DNA from: Pseudomonadota bacterium
GTDB taxonomy: Bacteria > Pseudomonadota > Gammaproteobacteria > Steroidobacterales > Steroidobacteraceae
DNA: 46,393 nucleotides
Direction: 5' to 3'
Assembly: GCA_021780475.1 (NCBI GenBank)
Contig: JAJXYR010000033.1
Span: forward strand, 1 to 46,393
The translations under genes and the position numbers were made by a program. The notes beneath the pieces are model-generated. The model was not told where the DNA came from. It worked only from the letters and a program-made list of their open reading frames with translations, and did no database searches. This document shows, piece by piece, positions 14,751-18,804 of this stretch (position 1 is the first letter of the stretch; each line of letters starts with the position of its first letter).

Positions 14751-16625
14751 ATGTCGGTTGAACGGAACACTAACGGTCGCATGGCGCTGTTGGCGCTCGG
14801 CGCGCTCGGTGTCGTGTTCGGCGACATCGGCACCAGTCCCCTCTACGCGATTTCCGCCTGCTTCACCGGCGCGCAAATGGCCGTTTCTCCGGACTATGTC
14901 CTCGGCGTGCTGTCGCTGATTTTTTGGTCGCTGGTGCTGGTGGTCCTGCTCAAATATGTGTCGGTGGTCCTGAACGCGGACAACAACGGCGAGGGCGGCG
15001 TGCTCGCATTGACCGCGCTGGTCGTGAACACGGACCGGGCGAGCCCGAGGAAAAAACTCTACGGGCTTCTCGGAATTCTGGGCGCGGCCTTGTTCTTCGC
15101 GGACGGCGCGATCACGCCGGCGATATCTGTACTTAGCGCGGTCGAAGGCCTGAAGGTCGCGGCGCCGGATTCGCAGATCCCGATCCTGCCGATCACGGTC
15201 GTCGTGCTGCTCGGACTGTTCATGATCCAGCGCTACGGCACCGGCTCCGTCGGCCGGGTGTTCGGACCGGTCATGCTCTTCTGGTTCGCGGTACTGGCGG
15301 CCCTCGGCGCGTATTGGGTCGTGCGCGAACCGCGCGTGCTGCTCGCGGTCAATCCGGTGAACGCGTTCGACATGCTGAGGCAGCACAAGATCGGCGCGCT
15401 CGCGGTGCTCGCGGGCGTGTTCCTGACCGTCACCGGCGGTGAGGCGCTGTACGCCGACATGGGCCACTTCGGCAAACAGCCGATCCGCGCCGGCTGGATC
15501 TGCGTCGTCATGCCTGCCCTGGTCCTCAACTATTTCGGCCAGGGGGCCTTGCTGATCGAGAACCCCGCGGCCATCAGCAATCCCTTCTACCTGATGGCCC
15601 CCGCCTGGTCGCTGTGGCCGCTGGTCGTGTTGTCGACCGCCGCCACGGTGATCGCATCGCAGGCGGTGATCTCGGGAGTCTTCTCGGTGACGCGGACGGC
15701 CGTGAGCCTTGGGCTGCTGCCACGGCTGCGCGTCGAGCATTCATCGGCCGAGAATGCCGGCCAGATCTACGTGCCGTCGATGAACCGGGTGTTGATGGTC
15801 GCGGCGATCGCGCTGGTCATCGGCTTCGGCAGTTCCGCCGCGCTCGCGGGGGCGTATGGCCTCGCCGTCTCCGGCGCCATGACGATCGTCACGCCGTTGA
15901 CCCTGAGCTTGATCAAGTCGCGACTCGGTCATCCCAGCTGGCCGCTGCGCGCCGGGCTGTCGCTGTTGTTCTTCGTCGACATCGCGTTCCTGTTGGCCAA
16001 CATGACCAAGCTTGCCGAGGGTGGATGGCTGCCGCTGCTGTCGGGCCTCAGCATCTACTGGGTCATGCAGACCTGGCAGCGGGGACGTGCGTCGCTGCAC
16101 GCGCGGCTGCTGCGGGAACAGAAGCCGGTGCGCGACTTTCTCGACGACCTGAAACGCGACCCGCCGGTCCGGGTGCCGGGCACGTCGATATTCCTCGACG
16201 CAAAGGCGTCCGGAATTCCGCGCGCCTTGTTGAACAACATCAAATTCAACCGGGTGATGCACGAGCGGGTGGTCCTGCTCACGGTCGTCACGCGCGAGGA
16301 TCCGCGGATCCCGGGGAACAAGCGCTTGACGGTGACCGACGTCGGCGAAGGGATCGTGCGGATCGTCGCCCAGTTCGGCTTCATGGACAAGCCGAACATC
16401 GTCGAGGTGCTGCGCCTGGCGGAGAGTTTCGGCGTTCCCTACGATCCGGAACGGACGACGTACTTCTTGAGCCGTGAAGAGCTCATTCCCGGACGCCGCT
16501 CGGAGCTGCCGCCGCTGCGGCGCTCGGTCTACATCCAGATGGCGCGCAACGCCCAGGTCGCCGCGGATTTCTACGGATTGCCGCCGGGCCGGGTCGTCGA
16601 GATCGGCACGCGCGTCGAGATCTAG
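14751..16625 (+). CDS. kup: Low-affinity potassium transporter Kup
   Basis: 624 residues. The first helix region has the Kup signature [15 protein letters not shown], and about twelve hydrophobic segments follow to about residue 430. A soluble cytoplasmic domain of about 190 residues ends the protein. Kup takes up K+ with protons across the inner membrane and works at low pH. ATG 14751 precedes a polar stretch ([10 protein letters not shown]) before helix 1. The stop codon shares CTAG with that of the converging rpiA. Confidence 0.95.
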
Positions 16626-17281
16626 GGGGTGATGCGGCGGACGCCCCCGTCGCCGCCGACGAGCAATTCATCCGCGCCGCGGCGCGCAAACAATCCGACG
16701 GTGACGACGCCGGCGATCTGGTTGATCTCGGTCTCCAGTCCGACCGGATCGAGAATCCGCAGGTTGTGCACGTCGAGGATCGCATTGCCGTTGTCGGTGA
16801 CCACCCGCTCGCGCCAGACGGGCTGCCCCCCCAGCGCGACGATGCGGCGCGCTACGTAGGAGCGCCCCATTGGAATGACTTCGACCGGCAGCGGGAACCC
16901 CCCGAGCACGTCGACCAGCTTTTCCTCGTCGATGATGCAGACGAACCGCTTCGACGCGGCGGCGACGATCTTCTCGCGCGTGAGCGCCGCGCCGCCGCCC
17001 TTGATCAGCGCGCCGTGGCGCGTGGCCTCGTCCGCGCCGTCGATGTATAGCGCCAGATCGCCGGCGCTGTTCAGGTCCATCTCCGGGATGCCCAGCTCGC
17101 GCAAGCGAGCCGAAGTCGCCTGCGAACTGGAGACCGCGCCTTCAAGGCGGATCCTGCGGTCGGCGAGCGCCGTGATGAATTCATTGACGGTCGAGCCGGT
17201 GCCGATGCCGACTACCATGCCGTCTTCGAGGTAGCGGACCGCGGCCTGTGCCGCCAAACGCTTCTTTTCCAGGGTTTCCAC
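16622..17281 (-). CDS. rpiA: Ribose-5-phosphate isomerase A
   Basis: 219 residues, interconverting ribose 5-phosphate and ribulose 5-phosphate. Motifs: [14 protein letters not shown] (phosphate loop), LYIDGADEA (catalytic Asp) and [15 protein letters not shown] (Lys and Glu of the active site). The start is GTG 17281. A strong hairpin (17303-17332) lies immediately upstream, so rpiA must either use a promoter within about 20 bases or receive read-through from the mini-gene before it. Convergent with kup, sharing CTAG. Confidence 0.96.
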
Positions 17282-17302: not shown

Positions 17303-17332
17303 CGACTGTGCCCGCAGATGCGGGCACAGTCG
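17303..17332 (-). terminator. Intrinsic-type terminator between the lysine-rich mini-gene and rpiA
   Basis: CGACTGTGCCCGC and GCGGGCACAGTCG form a perfect 13-bp stem with a 4-base loop. AGAAA on one side and TTTCT on the other flank it, so it could work in both directions. On the minus strand it begins 16 bases after the mini-gene stop codon and precedes rpiA. Confidence 0.75.
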
Positions 17333-17348
17333 GTTTCTTTACGAAGGC

Positions 17349-17414
17349 TTACTTTTTCTTAGCGGCCTTTTTCTTGGCTACCTTCTTCTTCGCCTTCTTC
17401 GCTTTCGCTGCCAT
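17349..17414 (-). CDS. Lysine/alanine-rich 21-residue mini-protein
   Basis: ATG 17414 to TAA 17349 encodes a peptide made only of Met, Ala, Lys and one Val (it begins MAAKAKKAKKK), with about 12 lysines. It has a GGAG ribosome binding site eight bases upstream, a recognisable promoter and a strong terminator, so it is organised as an independent gene. The composition resembles the tails of H1-like nucleoid proteins. A DNA- or RNA-binding role is plausible but not shown. It might also be a leader peptide for rpiA, since the hairpin follows it. I know no named family. Confidence 0.55.
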   Translation of the reverse strand: MAAKAKKAKKKVAKKKAAKKK

Positions 17415-17450
17415 GATTAAAACTCCGTTGTCGGGTTAGTCCGGGGTCCG

Positions 17451-17478
17451 AGTATATACACGAATAATCAAATTACAA
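17451..17478 (-). promoter_or_regulatory. Sigma-70 promoter of the lysine-rich mini-gene
   Basis: On the minus strand TTGTAA (17478-17473) and TATACT (17456-17451) are separated by 16 bases. Predicted start near 17444, about 30 bases before the ATG. This AT-rich block stands out from the GC-rich surroundings. Confidence 0.6.
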
Positions 17479-17528
17479 GCAATACGTCATACTCCGATGC
17501 CGCCGATGTGGTAGCGACGTGCGCGAGT

Positions 17529-17993
17529 TCACGTTAGACCGAGAATGAAATCCCAGTTCGCCCGCGTCACCGGCGTCACCGACAAGCGGTTCCCCCGGCG
17601 CAGGATCAGCAGATCGCGAAGCGCGCCGGCGGCGTGCGCGCGCAGCTCGTCGAGCGTCACGATACGCTGGAATTTACGGACCAAGCGCACGTCGACGACG
17701 AACCAGCGGGGATCGTCCGCGCTGCCGACCGGGTCGTGGTGCGCATGATGCGGATCGAGCGCGGTCGCGTCCGGATAACCCGGCCCGAGCACCTCGACGA
17801 TCCCGGCGATGCCCGGTTCGGGGCAACTGGAGTGATAAAAGAATGCCCGGTCGCCTTTCTTGAAGTCGTCGCGCAGCATGTTGCGCGCCTGGAAATTGCG
17901 CACGCCGTCCCACGCGGTGGTCTTCCCCGGGCATGCCGCGAGATCGTCGATGCTGAACGTGTCGGGCTCGGATTTGAGCAGCCAGTGATTCAT
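17529..17993 (-). CDS. EVE-domain (Thy28-like) protein
   Basis: 154 residues, a single EVE domain: HWLLKSEPDTFSIDDL at the start, then TAWDGVRNFQARNMLRD and GDRAFFYHSSC. EVE domains belong to the PUA-like fold and bind modified bases in DNA or RNA. The ATG overlaps the stop of the ygfA gene (ATGA), so the two are coupled; this follows the 6S RNA-ygfA block. The cellular role of stand-alone EVE proteins is not settled. Confidence 0.9.
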   Translation of the reverse strand: MNHWLLKSEPDTFSIDDLAACPGKTTAWDGVRNFQARNMLRDDFKKGDRAFFYHSSCPEPGIAGIVEVLGPGYPDATALDPHHAHHDPVGSADDPRWFVVDVRLVRKFQRIVTLDELRAHAAGALRDLLILRRGNRLSVTPVTRANWDFILGLT

Positions 17994-18586
17994 TGCGGTC
18001 TCCTCGGATAGCGGATGATTCCTGTTTCGCCGGCGAAGCCGTCCAGCCGCAGATCCCAAGGCTCCGCGAAAACGGCATCCACCCGCTGGAAATCGAATCC
18101 CAGGCCGATCAGGCACGGGCCGCTCCAATGCCGCCTGCACGCGCGATACGCGAAGGCGCGATCATAGAATCCGCCGCCCATGCCGAGCCGCCGCCCGCCG
18201 GCATCGATGCCGACGAGCGGCACCACCACCAGATCCAGCCAGCGCGCGCCGACCGGATGGTCGGCCTCATGGGGAATCGAGATGCCGTAGGCGCCGCGGC
18301 GCATTCTGCCGGCGAAGGGATGGAATTCGATGCGACGGCGCCGCATGTCCGCGATCACCGGCACGAAGAGGCGCACGCCGCGGCGGCGCGCCGCGGCGCG
18401 AAGCAGCGCGGTGTCGGTCTCGCGGTCGATCGGCAGGTACACGGCCACGCGCGCGCCCGCGCGGAATTGCGGCATCCGCAGGATCGCCCGTTGCGCCGCC
18501 CGGGAGAGGGCCGCGTGTTCCCGGCCGCCGAGGGCGCGCCGCTGTCCGCGCAGTTGGCCGCGCAGCGCAGCCTTCGAGGCCTTCAT
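17990..18586 (-). CDS. ygfA: 5-formyltetrahydrofolate cyclo-ligase
   Basis: 198 residues. It converts 5-formyl-THF to 5,10-methenyl-THF with ATP. The family motif RRLGMGGGFYDRAFA is present near residue 135, and an N-terminal basic helix (KAALRGQLRGQRRALGG) is as expected. In gammaproteobacteria this gene classically follows 6S RNA, as here. The start ATG 18586 sits just after the 6S RNA 3' end. Confidence 0.93.
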   Translation of the reverse strand: MKASKAALRGQLRGQRRALGGREHAALSRAAQRAILRMPQFRAGARVAVYLPIDRETDTALLRAAARRRGVRLFVPVIADMRRRRIEFHPFAGRMRRGAYGISIPHEADHPVGARWLDLVVVPLVGIDAGGRRLGMGGGFYDRAFAYRACRRHWSGPCLIGLGFDFQRVDAVFAEPWDLRLDGFAGETGIIRYPRRPQ

Positions 18587-18605
18587 CGCGCGAAGGCCGG
18601 TGAAT

Positions 18606-18804
18606 AGATGGCGCCACCCGCATGTGCCGTATTGGACCGTTGCTCCCGACCTGAGCAACAGGTGGGGCTCACTGCGGCAAGTAAGGCTTTCCGCCCATGG
18701 CGGACCTGCACAATGTTGCCAGCAAGCAAAGGCCCCTGGGGTTTACAAATTAGGGTCGAGAGGTAACCCGATCCGCATCGAACACCGCAGGCGGCGCCAA
18801 ACCT
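18606..18804 (-). ncRNA. ssrS: 6S RNA
   Basis: The stretch between zapA and ygfA is the standard place of 6S RNA in gammaproteobacteria. On the minus strand the ends can pair: TTTGGCGCC near 18800 and GGCGCCATC near 18607. The conserved motif GTCCGCC...AAGCCTTA, found near the middle of E. coli 6S, is visible. About 199 bases, slightly longer than in E. coli. 6S RNA mimics an open promoter and binds sigma-70 RNA polymerase in stationary phase. End points are approximate. Confidence 0.88.

Follow-up and report, generated by a model that had tools for sequence, protein, structure and literature searches.

A conserved gene for a 21-residue lysine- and alanine-rich peptide upstream of rpiA in Steroidobacteraceae, possibly a miniature of bacterial histone-H1-like polycations

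Introduction

Bacterial histone-H1-like proteins are known as long repeat proteins, and their function is mostly unclear. Very short basic proteins are known from the ribosome, where bTHX, bS22 and bL37 belong to this kind. With regard to expression, a G+C-rich discriminator is typical of growth-rate-controlled genes, and rRNA promoters have G+C-rich discriminators of a GCGCC-like kind.

According to one report, Hc2-like proteins comprise 149–237 amino acids, BpH1 of Bordetella is expressed in exponential growth and Bordetella BpH1 knock-outs grow like the wild type (PMC2848022). AlgP is described as a protein that associates with polyphosphate granules and needs its KPAA-repeat tail for their spacing, the N-terminal domain having 124 amino acids (PMC9239181).

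Here we analyzed a window, by which we mean the whole stretch of 46,393 nucleotides of contig JAJXYR010000033.1, for which an initial annotation had proposed a transcription unit for a short lysine-rich peptide. The family to which we refer in the following is Steroidobacteraceae by some of the record titles.

Results

Organization of the transcription unit

The promoter, the GGAG site, the 21-codon Lys/Ala frame and the 13-bp hairpin that had been described for this region were all located, and the whole unit lies on the minus strand in the order promoter, GGAG, 21 codons, hairpin and rpiA, with a gene for an EVE-domain protein on the far side. The promoter (TTGTAA-16-TATACT, 17478..17451) is the sole sigma-70-like match between positions 16500 and 18500, where shuffled sequences gave a mean of 0.2. 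In detail, the sigma-70 scan placed the -35-like hexamer TTGTAA at 17473..17478 (minus strand), which differs among genera in the family alignment, and the -10 hexamer TATACT at 17451..17456 (minus strand), followed by a G+C-rich discriminator. The leader core CGGACTAACCCG (17432..17443, minus strand), which was defined by family alignment and pattern scans, is probably located at or just 3' of the transcription start. The ribosome-binding site GGAG (17426..17423, minus strand) is positioned 8 nt 5' of the ATG, and a GGAG near the ATG was found in all 86 family members measured. The open reading frame of 21 codons (17414..17349, minus strand) encodes MAAKAKKAKKKVAKKKAAKKK and is followed by the hairpin (17332..17303, minus strand), which has 13 bp with ten G-C pairs, a loop of 4 nt and the core GCCCGC-N4-GCGGGC. 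Downstream, the gene for ribose-5-phosphate isomerase A, rpiA (16622..17281, minus strand), was assigned by NCBIfam NF001924 with 289.8 bits at a cut-off of 192, and its listed start at 17281 is 21 nt away from the end of the hairpin. The upstream neighbor (17529..17993, minus strand) was assigned to the EVE domain by PF01878 (E 1.1e-48).

In the vicinity of the unit, a CTANCACA-like box at 17507-17514 (minus strand) lies 5' of the promoter; by eye it recurs in many same-genus loci and in genus g22, and it is a possible regulator site. Furthermore, a 6S RNA is found at 18611-18796 (minus strand; RF00013, 73.9 bits, gathering threshold 46.4) beside the frame 18658..17990, which presumably encodes a protein resembling the ygfA-type 5-formyltetrahydrofolate cyclo-ligase.

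Selection on the peptide sequence

The peptide contains 12 Lys and 7 Ala among its 21 residues and no acidic residue, and its KKK blocks have Ala between them. The codon-position test comprised 22 loci, 21 from the same genus (window included) and one from another genus, and the frame is complete in 21 of them. At one locus (L023, on the same contig as L110) it is broken by an N inside the assembly stretch. The 21 complete frames encode the identical peptide in 20 cases, the exception being L018 with MAAKKKAGKKKATKKKAAKKK. Among the 20 loci with identical peptide, 13 third codon positions are variable and not a single first or second position. The chance that all 13 variable columns fall on third positions is 2.4e-8 if they are distributed at random over the 66 positions. 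As variation is restricted to third positions, we conclude from the alignment that the frame is translated and that selection acts on its peptide product, and the comparison argues that this 21-residue Lys/Ala gene is real and conserved. The original statement that such an order of elements is not expected by chance is thereby confirmed, also with regard to the DNA identity of 84-92% that the best same-genus matches to the 246-bp unit display.

The 246-bp unit was matched in 35 of the 40 genomes searched (own genome included), and matches from other families were chiefly confined to the Lys codons. A search of the 21-mer against the Pfam and NCBIfam profile libraries returned no match, and phmmer with the peptide against PDB chains gave 0 matches, which is a weak test for such a short and simple sequence. 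A DNA pattern for KKKAxKKK occurs only once in the own genome, namely at the peptide gene, and is present in 57 of 60 family genomes. Several of these genomes, e.g., G236, G325, G195 and G287, have additional KKKAxKKK sites away from rpiA (G236:C5:2920-2958, G325:C149:299-352 and G195:C14:18030-18068). These sites perhaps represent other Lys-rich proteins in some members of the family, and redundancy with them is possible in those genomes.

Distribution within the family

A scan of 296 genomes of the order with the leader pattern TATAYTNNGNCCNNGGACTAANCCG gave hits in 37, every one of them a member of the same family, and the reversed control gave 0 matches. The six genomes examined with a relaxed leader-core pattern contain it once each, and the control matched a single time across all six. 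In the named collection (84,980 species) the leader pattern retrieved 81 stretches, whose titles read Steroidobacteraceae, Gammaproteobacteria, Proteobacteria or Pseudomonadota. Eighty of the 81 were listed and read; some share one genome, they overlap with the family genome set, so that the two sets are not independent, and the leader is present in them by construction. An intact short K-rich frame was seen in 77 of these 80 stretches, with L079 and L101 counted by their full frames, a cut-off frame in two and an N-containing one in the last. The rpiA gene follows downstream in 71/80, the other nine having at most 301 nt left, and the EVE gene is located upstream in only 43 of the 63 stretches with at least 900 nt upstream; rpiA is therefore the steadier neighbor.

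A family sample that used neither the leader pattern nor the peptide was reached via rpiA, which was matched in 106 of 110 family genomes. The region upstream of rpiA was read at 90 loci (30 returned with flanks and 60 fetched; one genome gave two), and 89 of them carry a Lys-rich frame of 14-30 amino acids, counted from the ATGGC start after GGAG and not as the longest frame that any possible start codon would give. The sole locus without the frame, L225, holds 260 nt only. The same small frame thus stands upstream of rpiA in relatives, where the initial annotation had suggested to look for it. We also looked for relatives that had lost the frame or its lysines and kept the hairpin; frame, lysines and hairpin were retained together, and the only broken frame is the N-containing one of L023/L110.

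Leader and hairpin counts refer to 86 of the 90 loci, because L149, L156, L190 and L225 are too short upstream. These 86 members span 23 genera, contain 50-67% Lys, no Asp or Glu and a C-terminal KKK in all 86, and encode lysine by AAG (844 codons) and AAA (146 codons). All 86 have ATACT followed after 5-7 nt by [CG]GGAYTAA; the stricter core CGGAYTAA is present in 80/86, and in 86/86 if G is allowed as first base. The discriminator has a mean G+C content of 82%, with GCGCC in 13 members. Within genera the short form is nearly fixed, and between genera the frame stays open though its length changes. In genus g22 (loci L031-L052) the peptide has 16 or 17 amino acids. In the majority of these 22 loci, two hairpins in a row can be made out by eye in the interval from the peptide gene to rpiA.

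The hairpin and transcription of rpiA

The hairpin had been interpreted as a terminator. The stem of 13 bp was confirmed and the folding energy of the stretch is -32.5 kcal/mol (z -7.5 versus shuffles), but the T-run accepted by the terminator scan belongs to the plus strand, opposite to the gene, and the tail after the stem on the gene's own strand, TTTCTGAG, is a weak U-tract. The label terminator is therefore not secure, and we regard the hairpin as a putative partial terminator or 3'-end stabilizer. Transcription through the hairpin into rpiA is plausible, and we infer partial termination in the window, with the peptide promoter also serving rpiA, though at a lower level. The 21 nt between hairpin and rpiA are too short for another promoter.

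Across the family the core GCCCGC-loop-GCGGGC lies between peptide gene and rpiA in 86/86 members, and the own genome contains the core stem at one site. Both sides of the outer pairs 1, 2 and 4 change with standard pairing in 86/86, i.e., these pairs covary: pair 1 is T-A in 81, G-C in 4 and A-T in 1 member, pair 2 is G-C in 70, A-T in 12, G-T in 3 and C-G in 1, and pair 4 is C-G in 73, A-T in 7, T-G in 5 and G-T in 1. Standard pairing was found for pairs 3 and 5 in 81/86 and for pair 6 in 73. Pairs 7 and 8 are standard in only 47 and 50 of the 86 members, so that the stem ends there in many of them. Five consecutive T occur no more than 16 nt 3' of the core in 14/86 family members, so that termination may be efficient in certain genera; of the 15 long-form loci (see below) that have the core, 8 contain such a run no more than 12 nt from it.

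The strong conservation of leader core and hairpin, including the covariation, would also be expected if a regulatory RNA or processing hairpin were the element that matters and the open frame were incidental. We consider this highly improbable, as the 20 sequences vary in third codon positions alone and the frame stays open between genera despite the change in length. An element that acts as RNA only was ruled out by the codon-position test on the 20 identical peptides.

In a single fold that covered the leader and the frame, the hairpin forms as well, and none of the remaining stems is in competition with it. The same fold contains a 6-bp helix of the leader core with the stretch just before rpiA and another helix that joins the frame to bases 3' of its stop. 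Just 3' of the stop, at 17340-17351 (minus strand), GCCTT/GGCCT can pair with AAGGC in the frame, and this motif is found in 35/86 family members.

The initial annotation had also offered a leader peptide that links lysine supply to rpiA, with ribosome stalling at the lysine codons coupled to read-through of the hairpin. The position 5' of hairpin and rpiA, with rpiA next in 71/80 named stretches, and the two additional helices of the fold fit such a model. However, these helices leave the hairpin unopposed in that one fold, GCCTT/GGCCT follows the stop in only 35/86 members, the whole amino-acid sequence is kept beyond the Lys codons, and proteins of up to 209 amino acids with a similar promoter occupy the same slot in sister families. 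We are not aware of any connection between the supply of lysine and ribose-5-phosphate isomerase, and we judge the leader-peptide model to be very unlikely.

The same slot in other families of the order

The region upstream of rpiA was also read at 58 loci from other families (30 + 28) in genomes chosen by hand, the second set being weighted to family f15. A Lys/Arg/Ala-rich gene of 20-209 amino acids precedes rpiA in 46 of them; this number includes L337 and L338, which are apparently frame-shifted at the end, and excludes two frames that were considered unrelated, one of 25 residues in L259 and a shifted one in L237. The gene is missing at the other 12 loci, four of which have less than 400 nt readable. 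Overall, the slot is occupied in the majority of the families sampled, and a few families have no such gene at rpiA. At class level rpiA was found in 111/114 genomes, and the region upstream of it was read in 41, on two occasions for two of these. Outside the order a Lys-rich gene before rpiA was detected in only one of these 41 genomes (G385/L263). Genome G187 has two rpiA matches (L341 and L324), and a Lys-rich gene lies upstream of only one.

When 21 of the long or slot genes (20 from other families and one from outside the order) were aligned with the family leaders, TATACT was found in 19, GGAG in 21 and the GCCCGC/GCGGGC hairpin core 3' of the gene in 15. The slot gene varies between 20 and 174 amino acids within f15 and between 20 and 57 in its genus g38; its length is therefore fluid. 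In an RpiA tree the short forms of f15 (20-35 amino acids) appear in two places among long ones. As 19 of the 42 inner branches of this tree are open and family f1, the family of the window, was not recovered as one clade, the tree is compatible with shrinkage as well as with ancestral shortness in f1.

The short family gene and the long genes thus have the slot in common; their promoters are similar as far as alignment can tell, and in many cases the hairpin core is shared as well. The simplest account would be one orthologous slot with a product that varies in repeat number and is kept at 14-30 residues in the family of the window. We infer homology with the long genes from slot, promoter and hairpin, because low-complexity Lys/Ala sequence can arise by convergence.

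Discussion

We assume, with a probability of roughly 0.6, that the peptide is a natural miniature of a bacterial histone-H1-like polycation of the Hc2/BpH1 type, linked to growth and in part transcribed together with rpiA. The codon positions show that the peptide sequence is under selection and hence translated, and it is conserved throughout the family sample. In the proposed mechanism the gene's own promoter would drive the gene of the 21-residue polycation, and the G+C-rich, rRNA-like discriminator suggests high expression in growth; growth control of the unit would follow the same signal. Exponential-phase expression is likewise reported for BpH1 of Bordetella, but the normal growth of its knock-outs counts against our reading (PMC2848022). 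The strong hairpin with its poor U-tract would pass part of transcription on to rpiA, so that one growth-linked unit would yield much peptide and less RpiA. A product with 12 Lys, no acidic residue and Ala-separated KKK blocks should bind nucleic acid by charge, be it DNA, rRNA or mRNA, and might act as a short clamp or counter-ion. The earlier proposal of a nucleoid or RNA-binding peptide thus stands with respect to a lysine-rich product, and the binding itself is putative.

It is conceivable that the target is a defined rRNA site and that the peptide, like bTHX, bS22 or bL37, is small, basic and either part of the ribosome or associated with it. The near fixation within genera, with 20 of 21 peptides identical in the codon-position set, would fit a single defined partner, e.g., the ribosome, and the rRNA-like discriminator (GCGCC in 13/86) and the GGAG in 86/86 would agree with it. 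We regard this as a serious rival and yet as rather unlikely, since the slot drifts in length from 14 to 209 amino acids, unlike a fixed ribosomal site; the phmmer search against PDB chains, in spite of its low power for so short and simple a sequence, points in the same direction.

A role as polycation in the handling of polyphosphate or storage granules, as for the Lys/Ala/Pro-rich tails of AlgP and PhaF, seems improbable. The composition is similar, and AlgP sits on polyphosphate granules that are spaced by its KPAA-repeat tail, but the 124-residue N-terminal domain described in that study is absent here (PMC9239181).

The relation to H1-like proteins was analyzed using profiles. Four long forms from the same slot were compared with the HC2 profile PF07382, two of them scoring 37.4 and 25.9 bits at a cut-off of 40 and two giving no match, and their best score against the NCBIfam H1-like profiles was 24.7 at a cut-off of 80. 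None of these four long forms, nor the 21-mer, reaches the curated cut-off of PF07382 or NF038053. In terms of composition, the 86 family members display the low-complexity, Lys/Ala-rich sequence with spread positive charge of H1-like proteins; their published size of about 150-240 amino acids with repeats differs from the 14-30 amino acids in the family and the 20-209 in sister families. We therefore do not claim membership in PF07382, and it is reasonable to assume that the peptide works like an H1-like polycation.

More tentatively, and with less confidence than we have in the assumption above, the family may use one of the smallest genome-encoded nucleic-acid-condensing proteins, with 14-30 residues that are mainly Lys and Ala, which arose by shrinkage of an H1-like gene and is tied to growth and ribose-5-phosphate supply. 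If this is true, the core function of bacterial H1-like proteins would need only two or three KKK blocks. The selected form of 14-30 residues versus 20-209 in the slot of the relatives represents a natural experiment on the amount of polycation required. The peptide is also a sign of a class of conserved genes that is easily missed by the size limits of gene calling. A search of the open-access literature for "histone H1-like" together with "rpiA" found nothing, and as far as searched there, a 14-30-residue form across a family is undescribed.

Comparison with known systems

Attenuators of the trp/his type share with this locus the small frame and the hairpin in front of a metabolic gene; they differ in that the slot product of the sister families has up to about 200 residues and no competing antiterminator is seen in the single fold. 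The ribosomal proteins bTHX, bS22 and bL37 are alike in size and charge, whereas the peptide has no sequence match among PDB chains and a slot of variable length. With the Lys-Ala-Pro tails of AlgP and PhaF from Pseudomonas the peptide shares a disordered, lysine-rich repeat region, which is DNA-binding in AlgP/PhaF according to PMC9239181; there the polycation is the tail of a larger protein, whereas here it is the entire gene product. Closest are Hc2 of Chlamydia and the Hc2-like or BpH1 proteins of Bordetella and Burkholderia (PF07382, NF038052, NF038053), with short Lys/Ala/Val/Thr repeats, spread positive charge and a length that varies by repeat number, and the main difference is one of scale, as the Hc2-like/BpH1 proteins have 149-237 amino acids according to PMC2848022 and the peptide has 14-30 in the family sample.
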